From positions 62,001-126,000 of the forward strand of contig BPQB01000021.1 in the NCBI GenBank assembly GCA_019973155.2: DNA of 64,000 nt, read 5' to 3'. The position numbers and the translations under genes were made by a program. The notes under the pieces are model-generated. The model was not told where the DNA came from, did not search any database, and saw only the letters and a program-made list of their open reading frames with translations. Shown piece after piece: positions 42,792 to 53,608 of the stretch; position 1 is the stretch's first letter, and the number at the start of each line of letters is the position of its first letter. Source of the stretch: Phanerochaete sordida (Eukaryota > Basidiomycota > Agaricomycetes > Polyporales > Phanerochaetaceae).

Positions 42792-43897
42792 ATGACAACC
42801 ATGTGTAAGTGCAGCTCTTGTTTCATTGTTGACATAGCGTCGGGCTCATGCGTGCAGTCACTACAGCGGCGCCAGGGAGCGCCAGGCGCAGAACCTCCGA
42901 GGAGCACGTGCCGGGCGAGGTGCGCTACACAGACTACGCAGAGCAGGATGTCTACGTCGCGACGCCGAAGGAGCTCTCGCGCAGCGGCACCGGTGCCTCT
43001 GCAAATGCGCCCGGCGGGCCCAGCGGCACACGGAGATGTGCGTGCCCACTCTTGAGGCGGCATAATGGGCTCTCGGGCTGACATCGGCGCAGGGACGCAG
43101 GAGGACCAGAATCGCAAAGACGAGGAGGCGCGGAATAAGGCCGTGAAGGAGCTCGTGAACTCGTGGATGGAGCGCCTGCAGCTGATCTCCGTGATTGTGC
43201 GTGGATCCACGTCGCCGCTGCGAGGAGGTCCGCGCTGATGCGTTTGCATGTAGACGACGTTCTTTGCGGCGATTGAGGCGCAGCTATTGGGCATCGTGAC
43301 GCCGTCTGGCGACGATGGTGTCTCGGGCATCACCAAAGCCTCTGCCGCGACGCTCTCCAGCGCGCTGGTGGTGCATAGTTTCGCAGGTGAGTAGTGCTGC
43401 AGGATACGATGTGCGATCTCTCTGAAGTAAAGTCGCTGATTACCACGATCGCGCACCTAGCAATTCTGTCGTTCATTGCGGCCTTCTTCCTCGTGCGCTT
43501 CCGCGTGCACGAAGCAAATAAGCAAGAGACGAAGGCCGAGCAAAAATTGGAGGCGGGCCCCAAACCCGGACAGAGCGCAGAGAAGCCGGGCCCGACGGTC
43601 CCGCCGGAGATCTGGTCGGCAAACCCGCGCCTCGAGCAGGTCGGCCCGCTGCGCAGGGGCAAGCCACCGGTGCACCTGCTCGAGAACTGCCACACGCTTT
43701 GCATGGTGCTCTCCCTCGTCGGCTTCGTGCTTGCGATGGTCGGCATCATGTGCTATGTCTGGGCGATGCTCCCCAGGAGTTCGATAGTGCTGTCGACCGT
43801 CGCGATTGGCCTGTCGGTCATGTTGTCAGCCATGGCGTTGTCCCTGCCGCAGAGTGTATCGTTGATGGCCCCGAGCCATGTCGTCGACTCCTCATAA
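42792..43897 (+). CDS. Agaricomycete-type hypothetical transmembrane protein
   Basis: Exons 42792-42804, 42858-43037, 43093-43196, 43254-43386 and 43461-43897 encode 288 residues. The first exon carries only four codons plus one base. After a polar N-terminus (about 1-65) comes an Arg/Glu-rich amphipathic stretch and the block WMERLQLISVITTFFAAIEAQLL, which I associate with a large, uncharacterised family of small membrane proteins expanded in mushroom-forming fungi. Hydrophobic segments lie at about 90-110, 130-160, 222-245 and 250-275, with a Pro/Lys/Glu-rich cytosolic loop between the second and third. No enzymatic motif is visible. Function unknown; it may be a membrane organiser or a cargo-type protein. 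The unusually strong TATA box hints at conditional expression. Confidence 0.8.
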
Positions 43898-44396: not shown

Positions 44397-46454
44397 TTAC
44401 AGCTTGAGCTTGGTAATCTGCAGAGGCTGATCTGTACGCTCGAGTTTTTAGCGCATGAACCAGATGCCATGTAACTCGACTCACATGTCTGCTCGAACAG
44501 GTTGTCCCTCGGGACGGACACAATGTGCTGGTTGAGTGCTGAAGCATCCACCATCTCGGGCCGCAGCTCGTCCAGAGTGCGTACGCCAAGCAGACGCATA
44601 TTCATCTCGAACTCATCCTGATGCGCGCATCAGCCATCGTGTCTACCAATGCACGGCATCAACGCACCCGGAAGATCTGGATTGCCCGCTCGACGCCGGC
44701 GTCGCCGTACGCGCAGAACGCATAGAGGAAGGCGCGGCCGACACCAACCGCCTTCGCGCCGAGCGCGAGCGCCTTGAGCACGTCGCTCGCGCGGCGCACG
44801 CCGCCGTCGACGTAGATCTCGAAGCGCGGGTCTGGGTGGTAGCCCTTCGCGCGCAGCGCCGCGACGACCTCGACGAGGATCTCGATGCCCGAGCGCGCGG
44901 TGTCGAGCTGCCGCCCGCCGTGGTTCGAGAGCACGATCCCGCGGACGCCCGCCTCGTATGCGAGCACCGCGTCCTCGGCCGTCGCGATGCCCTTGAGGAT
45001 GATCGGCACTGGAAGAGGTCAGATGATGATGATGGGGAGAGCTGGGGTGCGTACTGCTCGTGATGCTCTGGAACCACGGGATGTCCTTCCACGAGAGGCT
45101 CGGGTCGATGAACGACTGCGCCTGGTCAGCATGTCGCGGCGAGCAGGCGACGGCGTGCACTCACGCTGATCGCGCGCGCGACACCCTGGTCCTTCTTGAC
45201 GCCCGCCTGTCCTTTCTGCACCTCGGCGCCGGCGTCGTCGTCGACCTGCTTCATGCGCATGTCCTTCTCGCGGCGCCCGAGCTGCGGCGCGTCGACGGTG
45301 ATAAAGAGGCCCTTCACGCCGCGCGCCTCTGCGTGCTGCACGTACCGCCGCGTGATCTCGCGGTCGCGGTTCACGTAGAGCTGCAGGAAGAACGTCTGTC
45401 CGTTCGCCTGCGCGTTCAGGATGTCGTCGAAGGAGCACGAGGCGAGCGTCGCGATCTGCAGAGCGTTACGAAAGATGGAACGGAAGGAATGAAGGGGCCC
45501 ACCATCTGGATGACGCCGTGCTTGGCCGCGGCGCGGGTTATGCAGAGTTCGCCATCGGGGTGTCCGAGCTTGCCAAGTGCTGTAGCTGACTGTCGAGTCG
45601 TAAGCAAAAAGTTGGCCTGGATCCAATGCAGGCCTTACAATGTACAGGGGAAGCGAGGACTTTTGTCCCAGAATAGTCGTGGACCAGTCGACGACTGAAA
45701 CGTCGCGCAGAATCCGCGGGCGGAACCACACGCTGGGATCTGAGGTCAGTGCGGATGTCCGCCCCGTCTGACAGCAATGACGGACCGCTGGAACGCCGTT
45801 CGGTTCTCGCGGATGGTGATCTCGTCATCGGAGCCGGACGAGTAGTAAGCCTGATGCTGCGTTAAGTCCGCTGTCGCCCAGACACGGCAACGCACGCACC
45901 CATGCTTTGGCCGGGATGACGGCCTTGGCGACGACCTCGAAGTCGTGCATGTTCAGCACGTTCTCGAGCGGCGGCCGCGCCGCAAGCGCCGCCTGGCGCG
46001 CCGTCTCCTCCGCGGTGACCTCCTTGACGGCTTTCGCGACTGTGCTCGCATCGATGGCGCCGAGGCTGCAAACGGGGCGTGAGCATGCCGCGATGCAGAC
46101 GTGTCACGGAGCGGCGTACTGCTTCTCCACGGGCAGATTGGTGGTGATCGCATCGGGCGGGTGGATCGGCTCGTAGGCCTCGCTGAGCAGCGGTCAGACA
46201 GGAGCAGCGGGGACTGGGGTTGTTACAGGTGTCACTTACGTCGCGTCTTGACCGGCGTACTTGAGGATGATGCGGCTGCCTCCGGGGTGCTCTGCGGTCC
46301 CATCGTCAGGCAGGGTAGACGAATACAGGCGGCTCGGCGTACCGTCCAGGAAGTCAGTCACATCGTAGACCTTGCCGTGCACGATGATCCAGCAGCTGTC
46401 TCTGCCGTTGTGCTTGGCGACCTCGGGGCCTGTGAGGATCTTGATATCCGACAT
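44397..46454 (-). CDS. Flavocytochrome b2-type dehydrogenase, copy 1 (candidate glyoxylate or L-lactate dehydrogenase)
   Basis: Twelve exons, read downward: 46454-46343, 46291-46240, 46182-46120, 46065-45900, 45850-45786, 45732-45639, 45589-45503, 45455-45165, 45115-45055, 45008-44668, 44617-44485, 44431-44397; 499 residues. A cytochrome b5 domain (about 5-85, haem ligands His39 in EHPGG and His62) is fused to an FMN alpha-hydroxyacid dehydrogenase barrel. The FMN/substrate motifs LQLYVNRDRE, VDAPQLGRRE, SNHGGRQLD (active-site His and Arg) and VDGGVRRASDV are intact. Yeast Cyb2 oxidises L-lactate in the mitochondrial intermembrane space, but this protein starts directly at the b5 domain with no presequence. 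Brown-rot glyoxylate dehydrogenase, which makes oxalate, belongs to the same family. The C-terminus ends Lys-Leu-Lys-Leu, not a standard PTS1. It is transcribed away from the oxaloacetate-hydrolase-type gene. Confidence 0.92.
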
Positions 46455-48820
46455 CTTGAGGGGTTTTGCCTGGCGGGCTTGGAAGCGCTACGGACCCGTC
46501 TAACCACCGCGCCATTTTTATTGATTGCAGGGCGGAAGAGACGGAGTCCGCTGGTGTCGCTTGGCGCAGAAGGAGCGAGGAGCAAGAGCGCACCGCGGCG
46601 CGCGAGGAAGGACGCGGAGCGACGCATCAGGCGCGGTCGGCGGAACGCGCAGCGGGCTATAGGGTCCGGTGTTAGACCGGCTGCGGGTGGTGGGTGTACT
46701 TCGATGGGAGGTGTCCGACAGGTACTGAAGGCATGCCAGCGTTGGGAAAAGTGCGCGTCTCGGTCCAAACCTCAGTGGGGAGCCGTGGCGGTCTAGGCTC
46801 CAGTCAAGAACTTTGTGAAGGTGCTGACAGGTCTGCTCCTGCGACGCGGCGCCACGTATCGGAGTAACATCGCCATCTAGACCATGCAAAGCGGTAGGTA
46901 TCTCATAGGAACGGATTGCAGAGAGTGCTTCCCCTCTATCTCCGCGCTCGGAAAACGAGACGAGAAATCTTCGTCGGTGAGCAAAGTCATATAGGGGCTA
47001 TGTGTGTGCTCTTATCAGTCGCTCGCAATGCACGTTGAAAGTTGCATGTCAGGACCAGAGTACTCACCTCATGGTCAGCGAACATGGAGCTCCCACATAC
47101 AATGAGAGGCTCAACGCTCATAACAGCAAGTTCATTCTGACATCTTCTATAGAATAGAATTGTCAGTACTGTCATATATGATAATAGACATAAGCAGATC
47201 AATAAATCTCGTTAGCGTGAAATGCGTACCATTACACTTTCCACGTATATATCGGCTTTGAATTTGAACAAGCGTCGAATGGGAGGCAGGCATTACTCCC
47301 GCTGTGTCACATGACGTAGCCAAATAAGCATCAACAATCAGCGCGTTGATGTGAGGCGCCGTCGCTCCTGGCTTTGACCACGACCATGACCAGTACTTAC
47401 ATCTCGTGCAGAAAAGTATCGCGGATAATGGGCTGCCGCTGCTGAAGCGCTGAAGTAGCAAAATTGGCGAACTTGCGCCGCCGTCATCCGATACATTGCA
47501 TGCTGTGCGGCTCAACTGCTGTCGTGCCCAAGCGGCATCTGTTGTGCAGTTGCATACATTCGTACCCTTCGCATGCTCTGGACCATATTTACGTGATTTT
47601 ACCCTATGATATGCGTGCGAGGCATTATCTGACCTTTTACTAGTGAGGCCGTGACGCATTATCCAAAAAATCGGACGGGATCCGTGCCACGTAGTCATAA
47701 ATCTGGTAACTGCTGCACGACAGACTTCGGTTATCTATGCAAAGGATAGTGCACGGCCCAAAATACGTCAGCTTGCTTGCTGCTCCTCGCGTGCCAAGCT
47801 CTTCCATACCATGTCTGCTCGCTCGCCAAGAGTCGAAGCGCGAATTGATCCGACTCCATGGAGTTGAATGCCCTTCGCTACTACCCTCTTGGTAAGTCGA
47901 CACCCGAGATCATCGCCGCATAGCCACCTATCCCCTTCAAGGATAATGTGGGCATGAGACATACTGAATACCTTGCTCATTTATTCCCCAGTCGTCCGCT
48001 GTGGGCTTCTTGCCGCAGTGCGCCAGCACAGCGCAGGTGGGAAGCTTCGGCGGTCTTTCGACGACCATTGCAATCTTCACCTTCACACCGAGGTCCAGCA
48101 ACACCAGCTCTGGCTACATTGAAATGGCGCTCTCTGTAGTACGACTATTGCCAAATCGTGGCTCTCCTCGCCTAAGCCCGATCAAACGCCGCCGAGGCAA
48201 TCTCAAAGTGTCCCACTCTATCCCAGCGTCTCCCCATACCCAGCTGCGGTGCGCCAAGTTTCTGCCAAGTGCACCTTTGTGGCGTTGTCCAGGCGTATGC
48301 TATTCCCAGCGACGACTGTGCACGCCTGCGGAGCATGAAACGCTTGGCACTCAGAGCTCGCTTCCCCACTCTTATTGCTCGTAGTCGTGTGTCTGCTCAC
48401 ACGATCGCAGCACGACAGCTGGCGACGTCGCGCGACATCCGACGGCTATTTTCACTGGCAGATGATCCAGACCCGCTAACGCCGCATCATCTCCCCAGTT
48501 CTTGCGCGTTCCCATCCGGAAGAGACCCTGCCCCGGTGCGTCTTCCTCACCTCGTACCGACAAGCGTAGCACCGCACGCGCGGCGGGCCCACGATCTAGA
48601 AAATTTCGAATGATGTCTGACAGACGTCGTGCGTCTAGGTCACCAGGATTACGCGCCTTGTGGGAGCCCTCCGAGCCAGCGGAGGAGACGAAGCAGATAA
48701 ATACATCCCAGCGAGAGCCAACCGATCCTCAGCCCGCTCATCGACGAGCTTCCCCAACAGCCAGCGCCCTCGCTCACACTTCTCCCGCGACCCTTTCTCC
48801 TCCTACCACATCCCACAAAC
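46455..48820. promoter_or_regulatory. 2.4-kb divergent intergenic region between dehydrogenase copy 1 and the OAH-type gene
   Basis: Opposed start codons make this the presumptive promoter region of both genes. An AATAAAAA element on the minus strand (46515-46522) lies about 60 bases before copy 1, and an ATAAATA element precedes the other gene. The middle (about 47000-47800) is AT-richer and empty of recognisable genes; small frames there lack motifs. Such a long divergent spacer is unusual in this compact window and may hold shared control sites. Confidence 0.5.
48697..48703 (+). promoter_or_regulatory. TATA-like box of the OAH-type gene
   Basis: ATAAATA about 120 bases before the ATG, followed by a CT-rich leader typical of highly expressed fungal genes. 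Confidence 0.4.
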
Positions 48821-50170
48821 ATGCCAGGCCTTGAGCTCTACGGATCCTTCGAGCCCGTTGCTGTTGCTCACGCACCCGCACCCATCATGGTCGACGTGTC
48901 TGAGCCGGTGACGCCTGTCGAGGAGCTGCTCCCGCGGAACCCCACCGTCTACTACAACCCGCGTCTCGACCCGAAGAACTACCTCGAGGGCCCGTTGTCG
49001 CTCAATGCGGCGACGCGCCTGCGCCAGATGCTCGCACGGCCCGGCATCGTGGTACGCACCACTCTGGACCTACAGACCCCCACCGCTCACATAGAGTCGC
49101 GTAGGTTGCGCCTGGTATCTGCGATGGCATCAGTGCCCGCTGTGCGCTTGAGGCTGGCTTCGAGTGCCTCTACCAGAGGTGCGGCCGATGCTCAGTTCGC
49201 GGAAGACCCTGATTAACGTTCCAACTCTGTAGCGGCGCTGCCACGACCGCCTCTCGCCTTGGCATGCCCGATCTTGCGATTGCGACGCTCAACGACTTCG
49301 TCGAGGCGGGCTCCATGCACGCTTCGCTCAACCCGTCGGTGCCTGTCATCGCGGATGCGGACACAGGGTGAGCTTCTCTGCTTTACCTAGTAGGAGTGGC
49401 ATGACGCTGACAGCGCGCGCACAGATTCGGCGGCCCGGCGATGGTCGCGCGCACGGTGACGAAGTACATCCGCGCGGGGCTCGCGGCGTGCCACATCGAG
49501 GACCAGGTGCAGACGAAGCGCTGCGGGCACCTGATGGGCAAGCAGGTCGTGTCGCGCGAGGAGTTCGTGACGCGCATCCGCGCGGCGGTCATCGCGCGCG
49601 ACTCGGTGCCCGGCGGCTCCGACTTTGTCGTCATCGGCCGCACGGACTCGGCGCAGGTGCTCGGCATGGACGAGGCGGTCTACCGCCTCAAGCTCGCGGC
49701 CGACGCCGGCGCGGACGTGTGCTTCATCGAGGGCGTCAAGACCGCCGAGCTCCTCACGAAGACCGTCGCCGCGCTCGCGCCGAAGCCCGTCCTCGTCAAC
49801 GTCATCTCTGGCGGCCTCACGCCCTCGTTCACCTGCCAGGAGGCGGAGGCTCTCGGTGCTAAGATCATCAGTACGTCTGCAGCTCTGGTGCGCGCTGGAG
49901 TGTAACTGACGCGACGCGCCCAGTCTTCTCTCTCGTCTCTTGCGTCGCTGCCGTACATGGCATCCGCGCTGCGATGCGCTCGCTGAAGAAGACCGGCACG
50001 GACTTCAGCTCCGCGCAGGGCATGGACCCCAAGGCGTTCTTCGAGGTCATGGGTACGTGCTGCCTCATGTCTGTACACACTCGGGTCCCTTATCTGGCGA
50101 TTCTCTAGGTCTCAACGAGGTCGTCAGTCTCGACGCGCGCGCAGGCGGCAAGGCCTTCGAGGAGATCTAA
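48821..50170 (+). CDS. Isocitrate lyase/PEP mutase family enzyme, probable oxaloacetate hydrolase
   Basis: Six exons (48821-49051, 49105-49178, 49233-49367, 49425-49870, 49924-50052, 50109-50170) encode 358 residues. Oxaloacetate hydrolases split oxaloacetate into oxalate and acetate in the cytosol and are the main oxalate source in many acid-secreting fungi; relatives include 2-methylisocitrate lyase and carboxyphosphonoenolpyruvate mutase. Visible: PGICDGISARCALEAGF and LYQSGAATTASRLG (early barrel strands), the metal/substrate site VIADADTGFGGP, the catalytic-loop motif KRCGHLMGK with its Cys (KKCGH in true isocitrate lyases), IGRTDSAQVLGMDEA, and VNVISGGLTPSF. It is far shorter than true isocitrate lyase (over 500). 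A family-diagnostic active-site Ser separates OAH from relatives; I could not place it securely. Its position between two flavohaem dehydrogenases supports an oxalate role. Confidence 0.88.
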
Positions 50171-50987
50171 GCACTCCTGGCAGGCCCTCACGCTCCGCCG
50201 ACGCGCATATTCTGTACCATATGCCCCTGCATGGATTCCGCATACTAGAAGGGCTCATCTTGCATCTGTATCCACACCCGCATCTTTAGACTAGGCCCTG
50301 TAACCTTTATGTCCTTTTCTGTACTCTGCATCGTCTGAGCAATCAAATTCGCTCAAATTCGCCCGTCGCGGTGCCTGGCTCCTGTGTCGTCCCCACGGGG
50401 GAGCACTTCGAGTGTTTTAGCTGCAAGATTGTGCTAAAGATATCCAGGTTTGACCACGGCTTCAAATTTGGCATCTTCTTGAGGAAACTTGCGTCATAAC
50501 GTGAGATTTTTCTACGCCCACTTACCTGCATATTTACCACTGCCTTGTAGGCTCAGGGGGATGCCTGCCCTCAGTCTATGTTACCATGGTGCCAGCATTA
50601 TTTATCGAGTCAAGGCCAAACCTCGAGGCGAAATTCAGGCTTTCTGCCATAAACACTACCAAAAGCAGGGACTTTTGCAGCCATTCGGCAGAACTTGCGA
50701 CGCGCTATCCGGGCCGTTTCTGGGAGGGCTGCGCCACGAGGAGGGCCAATGAAACGGCGCGCGTTGGATCGGCCGGACGCCGATTGGGGTCACGCGTGGG
50801 GGCGGCCGGGGTCCCGGGTGTCCTGTGACGGGCGTCCGAGGCTCCTATTGCAGGACAACCTCCGCGGGACGGAATACCTGCGGCAGCACGGGGAGAATAC
50901 AAAGTTCTTACGTCCACGAGTCCTCTGCTCTCACCACGCTTGACCTGGTTTGCTCTGCGTTTCTTGACTACCTGCCAGCAGCACAAG
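50171..50987. other. Intergenic, no gene recognised
   Basis: OAH-type 3' flank and promoter of dehydrogenase copy 2. The 250 bases before copy 2 are GC-rich; no clear TATA element. Confidence 0.5.
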
Positions 50988-53608
50988 ATGTCCGGGAAAG
51001 TGTTCACTGGCCAGGAGGTCGCCCAGCACAACACGCGCGAGAGCTGCTGGATCATCGTGCACGGTGAGTGACGTGTGGACGCGCAGGTGGACACAGGAGA
51101 TACGCCGAGCGCGTCTTGTACACCTACGTGCAAGTGTAACGAGGAGGGATGCTCATGAGCGGACGCTAGGCAAGGTCTACGATGTCACAGAGTTCTTGCC
51201 AGGTGCGTCTTAGCCCCGTTCACGATGCAGCCTGGAACTTACACGCTGGACAGAACACCCCGGTATGTTTTCAGTCTGAGTCTGTCGATCTCATCCCTTA
51301 CTGAGTGGTCATGCAGGAGGGTCGAAGATTATTTTGAAGTACGCGGGCAAGGATGCGACGTATGTCCCCACCGTTATTACCGTACTTTACCCTCTCAGTT
51401 TACGCTACAGCGCGGAATACGACCCGATCCACCCGCCAGATGCCATTACCAAGAATCTTCCTCCTGAGAAGCAGTACGTTCTCGTTCCTCTTCTCGTCAA
51501 ACCGACGTTCAAGCCAATGATCTCAGGCTTGGCTCCGTTGACCTCAACACTGTGGAGAAGGTCGAGATCGTAGTCCGGGAGGAGGACAAGCTTCGTCAGG
51601 AACGCTTTGCTCTGCGGCCGTCGATGTCAGAAATTCTGACGCTGCACGACTTTGAGGTGCGTTTCGGAGTGACAGCTCTTCCACCTTCCGCTTGAGATAC
51701 GCCCGAAAGTCTTCTTGCATTCGCCAGTGAGCCTCGCTCTCCAGCCTGGCAGGCTCGGCTCTATCGAGCTGGGACGCTTGTCACTGCTAATGTGCGGCGG
51801 GGGTCTCAAGCGCCATTGCTGGAGAACAGGGAAATTCAGGCGGCAGGAACAGTCCCGGTAGGGCAACTGCCATACGAGGGATGGGGAGCGTCGGGAAATT
51901 ACCTCGCTGCTAAATTTCCCTATCGTCGATGTCCATCGTTCTGTGTACAGCTATGACGAGAGCGGGGCAGCGCTGACAATAACTTCCGCAGGCCATTGCT
52001 CGGCAAATCATGAACGAAAAGGCGTGGGCGTACTACAGCTCAGCTGCCGACGACGAGATCACCATCCGCGAGAACCACGCTGCGTACCATCGGTGAGCAT
52101 CATAAAGTTACGCTTGCCAAAGGTTAGCTGACCGTCGTTTGTTTTTCTTCTTCAAGTATCTGGTTCCGCCCACGAATTTTGAAGAACGTTACCCACGTCG
52201 ACTGGTCGACCAAGATTCTGGGCTTGCCCTCGAGCATGCCAATCTATATCGTGAGCCTTGCATGGTATAAAGTGCGCCGCAGCGTACCGATGGCTCGCCC
52301 TATCTCAGACTGCGACCGCCCTTGGGAAGCTCGGTCACCCGGACGGCGAGCTGAACCTGACGCGGGCTGCTGCGAAGCACGGCATCATCCAGATGGTAGG
52401 TTTTGTCGTAGACTCGCGCGTGGAGACCGGCTACTTACACCATCTCACTATATGCGTAGATCCCGACACTCGCGTCGTGCTCTTTCGACGAGATCGTCGA
52501 TGCTGCGGCTCCTGGTCAAAATCAGTTCCTCCAACTGTGAGTGCACAGCACCAGTCGTGCGCATGACACCGCTAACTGTTGCCTAGGTACGTGAACAAGG
52601 AGCGCGAAATTACGAAGAAGTTCGTGCAGCACGCCGAGAAGCGCGGCATCAAGGGCTTGTTCATCACCGTCGACGCACCGCAGCTTGGTCGTCGCGAAAA
52701 GGTGACGCCAGTGCACTTCTCACGGAGAAGCCTAATTGAACGATTCACATGCAGGACATGCGTCAAAAATTCGAAGCGGAAGAGCCAGATGAAATGGAGC
52801 GCAACAACGAGAAGGTCGACCGTTCACAGGGCGCGGCCCGTGCGATCAGTGTACGCACCTTCGTTCCGTCTTTGCCAGCTTATTCTCATGTTATCGCCAG
52901 TCGTTCATCGACCCAGGCCTGTGCTGGGAAGACATGGCGTGGTTCAAGAGCATCACGAAGATGCCGCTGATCCTGAAGGGCGTGCAGTGCTGGGAAGACG
53001 CGCTGCAGGCGTACGACGAGGGCCTCGCGGGCGTCGTGCTTTCGAACCACGGCGGGCGGCAGCTGGACTTTGCGCGGTCGGGCATCGAGGTGCTCGTCGA
53101 GGTCGTCGCGAAGCTCGAGGAGAAGCGCGGGCTGCGGTTCCCGAACGACAAGTTCGCGCTGTTCGTCGACGGCGGCGTGCGGCGGGCGACGGACGTGATC
53201 AAGGCGGTGGCGCTCGGGGCGACGGCGGTCGGAATCGGACGGCCGTTCCTGTACGCATTCTCGACGTACGGCCAGGAGGGCGTCGAGAAGGCGCTGCAGA
53301 TCCTGCATGTGCGTATGCGCCCGGCGCGGGCGAGCGTGAGCGCTGACTTCCTTGGCAGGACGAATTTGAGATGAACATGCGCCTGCTCGGCGCCCCGACA
53401 CTGAAGGACGTCGTGCGAGACATGGTCGACGCGTCGTCGGTGCACCAGCACATCGTGGCCGTCCCGGACGACCGGCTGTTCCACCAGAACTGTGAGTCGG
53501 GTCTAATGTCTCTGTCATGTCGGCGGGACTGATTGGGCGCGCGTAGACGAGGGCATCGCCGGCGCACAGCTCCGGGCTGCTGCGAAAGAGCAGAAGGCGC
53601 GGATGTAG
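50988..53608 (+). CDS. Flavocytochrome b2-type dehydrogenase, copy 2, with PTS1-like C-terminus
   Basis: Fifteen exons (50988-51063, 51170-51202, 51254-51262, 51317-51359, 51411-51473, 51527-51656, 51992-52092, 52157-52250, 52309-52395, 52460-52536, 52587-52701, 52755-52850, 52901-53308, 53359-53491, 53547-53608) give 508 residues. Domains match copy 1: b5 haem domain (His38 in EHPGG, His61), then the FMN barrel with LQLYVNKERE, VDAPQLGRRE, SNHGGRQLDFARSGIE and VDGGVRRATDV. It ends Ala-Arg-Met, a good PTS1 peroxisomal signal, and has no mitochondrial presequence, so peroxisomal glyoxylate oxidation to oxalate is the favoured role; L-lactate dehydrogenase is the alternative. Exon 3 is a 9-base microexon carrying the first haem ligand. 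The sixth intron (335 bases) is much longer than normal. Several introns are shared with copy 1, others are unique. Confidence 0.93.
51657..51991 (+). other. Long intron in dehydrogenase copy 2 with internal inverted repeats
   Basis: GTGCGT donor, CCGCAG acceptor, 335 bases against a local norm near 55; the matching intron of copy 1 is absent (its reading continues through). Contains short complementary pairs (GGGAAATT near 51895 with AATTTCCC near 51915). It could be an inserted small element, but terminal repeats and a target-site duplication were not demonstrated. Confidence 0.6.

Follow-up and report, generated by a model that had tools for sequence, protein, structure and literature searches.

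A probable three-gene oxalate cluster in Phanerochaete sordida and its recurrence across Agaricomycetes

A 64,000-nucleotide stretch of the genome of the white-rot species Phanerochaete sordida (Polyporales, Phanerochaetaceae; contig BPQB01000021.1, positions 62,001 to 126,000; hereafter the window) contains three adjacent genes, which we call L, M and R. L encodes a cytochrome b5-FMN dehydrogenase of the glyoxylate dehydrogenase (GLOXDH) group, M a protein of the isocitrate lyase/PEP mutase family that resembles oxaloacetate hydrolase (OAH), and R a second cytochrome b5-FMN dehydrogenase, which belongs to a separate orthologous group. The most likely explanation of this locus, to which we assign a probability of roughly 0.7, is that it represents an oxalate cluster of three genes conserved among Agaricomycetes. 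Many other mushroom-forming fungi show the same neighbourhood, and this suggests that oxalic-acid production is kept as a genetic unit.

The spliced models of the three genes were assembled manually, guided by GT-AG sites and homology. L occupies positions 44397..46454 of the minus strand (12 exons, 499 aa, C-terminus LKL), M positions 48821..50170 of the plus strand (6 exons, 358 aa), and R positions 50988..53608 of the plus strand (15 exons, 508 aa, C-terminus ARM). All three are intact, with the stop codon of L at 44397 and that of R at 53608. The initial annotation of this DNA had described two b5-FMN dehydrogenases around an isocitrate lyase/PEP mutase gene; the spliced models bear out this layout and its exact limits.

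Recurrent linkage across Agaricomycetes

In order to follow the neighbourhood in other species, we manually compiled the named rows of three homologue lists, in which 120 matches were listed out of 4,050 for OAH, 7,818 for L and 7,047 for R. Rows with an equal size of the longest contig were taken to lie on the same contig. We excluded the Calocera and Tulasnella rows, the mixed Pisolithus row P0196 and all rows in which organism or contig was missing. Linkage outside P. sordida is judged here by shared contigs and neighbouring locus tags.

Of the species named in both lists of a pair, 23 of 28 have OAH and L on a common contig, 23 of 32 have OAH and R, and 21 of 35 have L and R. The corresponding chance expectations are 0.81, 1.24 and 0.95 species, obtained as contig size over an assumed 40 Mb, a calculation that contains no measure of how well unrelated gene pairs retain their neighbours. 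All three genes are on the same contig in 8 of 11 species, and at least one linked pair was found in 51 species among the matches listed. The species in which a single contig holds the whole trio span four orders and include Hermanssonia (Polyporales), Dentipellis (Russulales), Imleria (Boletales) and Pluteus (Agaricales).

Locus tags give a finer picture. Thirteen species have running tags in at least two lists, namely Hermanssonia, Cerrena, Taiwanofungus, Steccherinum, Stygiomarasmius, Leucocoprinus, Antrodiella, Psilocybe cf. subviscida, Panaeolus cyanescens, Agrocybe chaxingu, Fibroporia, Meripilus and Ganoderma adspersum, and in all thirteen, counted by eye, at least one pair is only 1-5 numbers apart. 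The order L-OAH-R can be read directly in Hermanssonia (g4476, g4477, g4478) and Leucocoprinus (005488, 005490, 005491). Fibroporia and A. chaxingu have one unseen tag number between L and R, the tags of Steccherinum are compatible with the same order, and the R gene of Stygiomarasmius is located elsewhere. JGI draft-type numbers need not follow position and were left uncounted; these pairs are close in P. carnosa (259725/259730), far apart in Gelatoporia (160722/118222) and adjacent in Agaricus bisporus (112846/112847). The initial annotation had proposed a synteny check and would have given up its interpretation if close relatives showed no conserved neighbourhood. Shared contigs and neighbouring tags contradict such a lack of conservation, since they extend well beyond close relatives.

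Near-adjacent gene numbers also appear in published tables: XM_008045016 for GLOXDH and XM_008045015 for OAH in Trametes versicolor (PMC10512323), 0811.539 for oxaloacetase and 0811.538 for GLOXDH in Irpex lacteus (PMC5833081), and FPRL280_17_38 for GlyD and FPRL280_17_43 for OahA in Rhodonia placenta (PMC10512373). We infer that these numbers reflect position. The passages that accompany the tables carry no remark on a neighbourhood of OAH and GLOXDH.

The passages that report expression of these pairs describe responses that are at least partly joint. Both members of the T. versicolor OAH/GLOXDH pair were reduced on wood (-1.88 and -2.37; PMC10512323). On glucose, the I. lacteus pair rose between day 3 and day 6 from 7.83 to 207 and from 5.21 to 174, or about 26- and 33-fold (PMC5833081). 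In R. placenta, GlyD and OahA were both raised in a comparison of two decay phases, apparently in the oxidative phase (PMC10512373), and again at the first harvests from unmodified and lightly treated wood (PMC6606883).

A number of observations weigh against a functional cluster, beginning with the form of the chance expectation given above. OAH and L are on separate contigs in five species (Auriscalpium, Fomitopsis serialis, Lentinula edodes, Moniliophthora and Scleroderma), one of which, F. serialis, is a congener of the model oxalate producer Fomitopsis palustris. OAH and R are separate in nine species and L and R in fourteen, nine of the latter being Mycena, in which the two genes lie on separate contigs in all nine species listed in both. 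The Mycena pattern would fit a single break-up of the cluster in the genus, and in some of the separate-contig cases different strains were compared or the contigs were small. Expression also diverges in places. On lignocellulose, I. lacteus OAH reached 103 and 77.2 versus 6.35 and 7.59 for GLOXDH (PMC5833081). In R. placenta, the passage on acetylated wood names OahA as up and does not name GlyD (PMC10512373), and a delay of OahA is described for two furfurylated treatments (PMC6606883). The OAH and GLOXDH genes of G. trabeum differed in their response on cedar (PMC7735643), and the passage on F. radiculosa reports two OAH genes raised in wafers and mentions no rise of GLOXDH (PMC10608345). 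Co-expression of the cluster, another check proposed by the initial annotation, thus rests on mixed evidence: it is partly joint in T. versicolor, R. placenta and I. lacteus, and divergent in I. lacteus on lignocellulose and in R. placenta, F. radiculosa and G. trabeum.

These observations bring up the possibility of passive conservation, in which the three genes are ancestral neighbours that never separated, their shared pathway is a coincidence, and L and R are adjacent through duplication. L and R are indeed paralogues (64.6% identical over 497 positions), both persist without visible linkage in the nine Mycena species, and the mixed co-expression is what such a history would allow. However, OAH is unrelated to L and R by paralogy and is nevertheless linked to each of them in 23 species, with the full set spread over four orders, and expression is at least partly joint in three species. 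We regard passive conservation as unlikely. Selection, and not inertia, would then be the cause of the linkage.

Assignment of the middle gene

M belongs to the isocitrate lyase/PEP mutase sequence family. Its best solved relatives are the 2,3-dimethylmalate lyase 3fa3 and the OAH 3lye (E 1.7e-84 to 3lye), the latter a chain from C. parasitica. Unfortunately, overall identity turned out to be indecisive, as it amounts to 52.2% to 3fa3 and 50.2% to 3lye and so places M slightly nearer to the dimethylmalate lyase. A single alignment column is more informative, the only one in which 3lye and petal death protein (1zlp), which has OAH activity, both hold a serine and 3fa3 does not; 3fa3 has a proline there. 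M has a serine at this position (S298), and so do all 120 of its listed homologues. The catalytic loop motif of OAH, K(K/R)CGH, is present as KRCGH from residue 178 of M and is likewise found in 120 of 120 listed homologues. An active-site serine has been associated with OAH activity (PMC8224569); the position of the marker serine was set by our own alignment.

The similarity to 3fa3 raises the question of whether M could be a 2,3-dimethylmalate or methylisocitrate lyase, in which case the cluster would be unrelated to oxalate. Among the NCBIfam models, which were built for prokaryotes, methylisocitrate lyase ranks first for M, but at 225.1 bits it stays under its cut-off of 354.4. The marker serine in M and in all listed homologues argues for OAH instead. 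Moreover, the OAH activity of the F. palustris enzyme was confirmed through its cloned cDNA, according to the part of a review that deals with it, and the T. versicolor homologue is reported to be 88.1% identical to F. palustris OAH at 86% coverage (PMC10512323). We therefore consider a lyase of either kind very unlikely. Action of M on methylisocitrate, which the initial annotation had named as an outcome that would overturn its interpretation, is improbable in view of S298.

Other PEP-mutase matches in the genome lie on contig C13, on contig C9 and, below threshold, on contig C70. The C13 gene (13046-13833) is an OAH-like paralogue with a proline at the marker position, and it is presumably no OAH; the C9 match is isocitrate-lyase-like in our reading. 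Because M carries a serine where the C13 gene carries a proline, M is the only predicted OAH among these matches, in a search that scored the best candidates only.

The two flavohaem dehydrogenases

L is identical over its full length (100%) to the record P0121, 'glyoxylate dehydrogenase [Phanerochaete sordida]'. This name is frequent among the listed L-group records, for instance in F. serialis (P0154), and as far as names are displayed it occurs in no listed row of the R group. L may be orthologous to F. palustris FpGLOXDH, judging by the names of group members. L matches yeast flavocytochrome b2 (1fcb) over its length with an E value of 5.7e-147, and the identity to the yeast enzyme is 49.4% for L and 50.1% for R. 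L contains a b5 domain with both axial histidines and an FMN dehydrogenase domain, with yeast positions 43, 66, 373 and 376 kept.

The relationship of the two genes was examined in a tree of 65 proteins (62 chosen from 344 matches, L, R in its 505-aa model, and the yeast sequence). The L-type (30) and R-type (34) proteins separate with 100/100 support, and several orders are represented in each group. Hence, R does not go back to a recent duplication of L. The stem of the L group is long and well supported (0.36, 100/100). R-like proteins of Calocera and Tulasnella are nearest to this stem, and the position of the root, placed on a very distant yeast sequence, is unsure. As R falls outside the clade named glyoxylate dehydrogenase, we did not file it as GLOXDH. 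The interpretation given in the initial annotation, that two oxalate routes are kept together, hence stands in part. It agrees with the marker serine of M, with the place of L in the GLOXDH-named group and with the recurrent linkage, but its notion of two flavohaem glyoxylate dehydrogenases is not borne out, since R forms part of a separate group whose listed rows do not bear that name.

One record in the L group is conspicuous in itself. P0124 carries the label Pleurotus ostreatoroseus. It shows 87% identity to P. sordida L and ends in ITKLKL, an ending otherwise found only in Phanerochaete and Hermanssonia rows. This record may be mislabelled.

In L, 17 of 18 checked positions of the yeast L-lactate dehydrogenase are identical, and the same 17 are kept in R once its microexon, described below, is included; position 43 was a gap before this inclusion, and position 228 differs. 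For this reason, glyoxylate, L-lactate and glycolate cannot be told apart as substrates from the sequences of L and R. The near-complete match is a further point against an oxalate cluster, and together with the identity of about 50% it would suit a 2-hydroxy-acid cluster, acting on L-lactate or glycolate, in which L and R would be flavocytochrome b2 dehydrogenases of the ordinary kind and OAH would be present for some other reason. Such a cluster would have to account for the long, fully supported stem of the L group, as well as for the termini of these proteins. Yeast flavocytochrome b2 is mitochondrial, whereas most L- and R-group proteins combine short N-termini with a C-terminal peroxisomal signal. 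The b5 domain has its SCW-type start at most 23 residues from the N-terminus in 97 of 97 proteins of the L group and at most 24 in 123 of 125 R-group proteins. The strict C-terminal peroxisomal pattern, [SAC][KRH][LM], is present in 68 of 99 L-group, 76 of 125 R-group and none of 120 OAH proteins listed, and its rate inside the same proteins is 0.0003, 0.0029 and 0.0044, respectively. We find a 2-hydroxy-acid cluster quite improbable.

As the L and R groups mostly carry the peroxisomal signal and the OAH group never does, the three genes probably join a cytosolic and a peroxisomal route to oxalate. This is in agreement with a review in which GLOXDH is described as peroxisomal and oxaloacetase as cytoplasmic (PMC11045627). 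P. sordida R itself ends in ARM and fits the pattern; the LKL end of P. sordida L is outside its strict form, and this also speaks against the assignment.

The first model of R had 14 exons and 505 residues and lacked the haem-binding HPGG motif, so that R appeared to have lost a haem ligand. A 9-nt microexon (51254..51262, plus strand) that codes for E-H-P, including the first axial ligand, and is flanked by GT-AG introns of 51 and 54 nt rules this out. It is the sole in-frame candidate in the 114-nt stretch when the exon may not exceed 30 nt and each intron must reach 40 nt. In 20,000 shuffles, some candidate arose in 5,402 and one with HPG in 5. The microexon brings R to 508 residues, the same length as P0241, which is its closest relative in the list, and the ligand histidine is kept in 118 of 125 listed R-group proteins. 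The database models of three R relatives, P0326, P0331 and P0335, read EFLDGGSK and are three residues short at this site, as if gene callers had skipped a conserved microexon. Another intron of R (51657-51991) is unusually long at 335 nt, compared to 50-106 nt for the others. We considered that it might be a repeated element, and a genome search found only the intron itself.

Proposed role and limits of the locus

In the oxalate cluster that we favor, M would cleave oxaloacetate into oxalate and acetate in the cytosol. L would oxidize hydrated glyoxylate to oxalate in the peroxisome through its FMN and pass the electrons to its own cytochrome b5 domain, with isocitrate lyase as the supplier of glyoxylate. 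The two routes would interlock, because the acetate released by M could return via acetyl-CoA and the glyoxylate cycle to both precursors. R would be a paralogous flavohaem 2-hydroxy-acid dehydrogenase, probably in the same compartment as L, with glycolate, L-lactate and glyoxylate as candidate substrates. In a more far-reaching form of this proposal, a class-wide ancestral oxalate cluster would have peroxisomal R turn glycolate into glyoxylate and L turn glyoxylate into oxalate, next to a cytosolic OAH and under a shared L-OAH control region, and one locus would govern oxalate in wood-rotters and mycorrhizal fungi alike. We consider this extended form doubtful.

The divergent genes L and M are separated by an intergenic stretch of 2,366 bp (46455..48820, no strand, as delimited by their spliced models), which could harbour a shared control region. 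An enrichment of this stretch in GCCARG, the PacC-type pH motif, at first looked promising: it contains 8 sites, and at least 8 were found in only 6 of 500 mononucleotide shuffles. We rejected it because the whole window is rich in such sites (120 versus 85.9 expected) and as many occur in 61 of the 617 stretches in it that have the same length.

To the left, the nearest neighbour with a recognizable domain is a TrkH potassium transporter; to the right, the nearest are eIF4G and a glutathione transferase. An arrestin, an OPT transporter, an aldo/keto reductase and others lie further to the left. Among the 20 open stretches scanned for domains, no organic-acid transporter or regulator was recognized beside the cluster. 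The open stretch that adjoins L (43391-43897) resembles part of a membrane protein and has no Pfam match. No cupin of the oxalate-decarboxylase type was found on the cluster contig, and all 11 cupin matches of the genome are on other contigs. Since the neighbours recognized in the scanned stretches have no evident link to oxalate and the cupins are elsewhere, we rejected a larger cluster, and the unit appears to consist of three genes.

Each part of the locus has a known counterpart. M shares its fold family, the KRCGH loop and the marker serine with known OAH enzymes (of the type of 3lye and F. palustris FpOAH) and half of its residues with 3lye, but its match to 3lye starts only at residue 62, which leaves an N-terminal extension of about 60 residues, and it has flavohaem dehydrogenases for neighbours. 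L resembles the FpGLOXDH type by record names and differs in its LKL end. Both L and R share the b5 and FMN domains of yeast flavocytochrome b2, but they are devoid of its long N-terminal extension. Similar to other fungal metabolic gene clusters, the locus unites non-homologous neighbours for one end product, in an order that recurs in the few species where it is readable. In contrast to them, its product would be a primary organic acid made by two parallel routes, probably in two compartments, and the linkage spans four orders. While the enzymes and fungal gene clusters as such are already known, none of the titles and abstract starts listed in our searches of open-licence PMC literature describes a widespread cluster for this acid, even though near-adjacent OAH and GLOXDH numbers have been in print, uncommented in the passages around them.

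In fungi, oxalate has a central part in brown rot, lignin attack, metal tolerance and mineral weathering. If our interpretation is correct, the locus would offer a single place in the genome for asking how the cytosolic and the peroxisomal route to this acid are balanced against each other. R would be predicted to belong to oxalate metabolism, and the question would arise as to which electron acceptor serves a cytochrome-b5 dehydrogenase inside the peroxisome.

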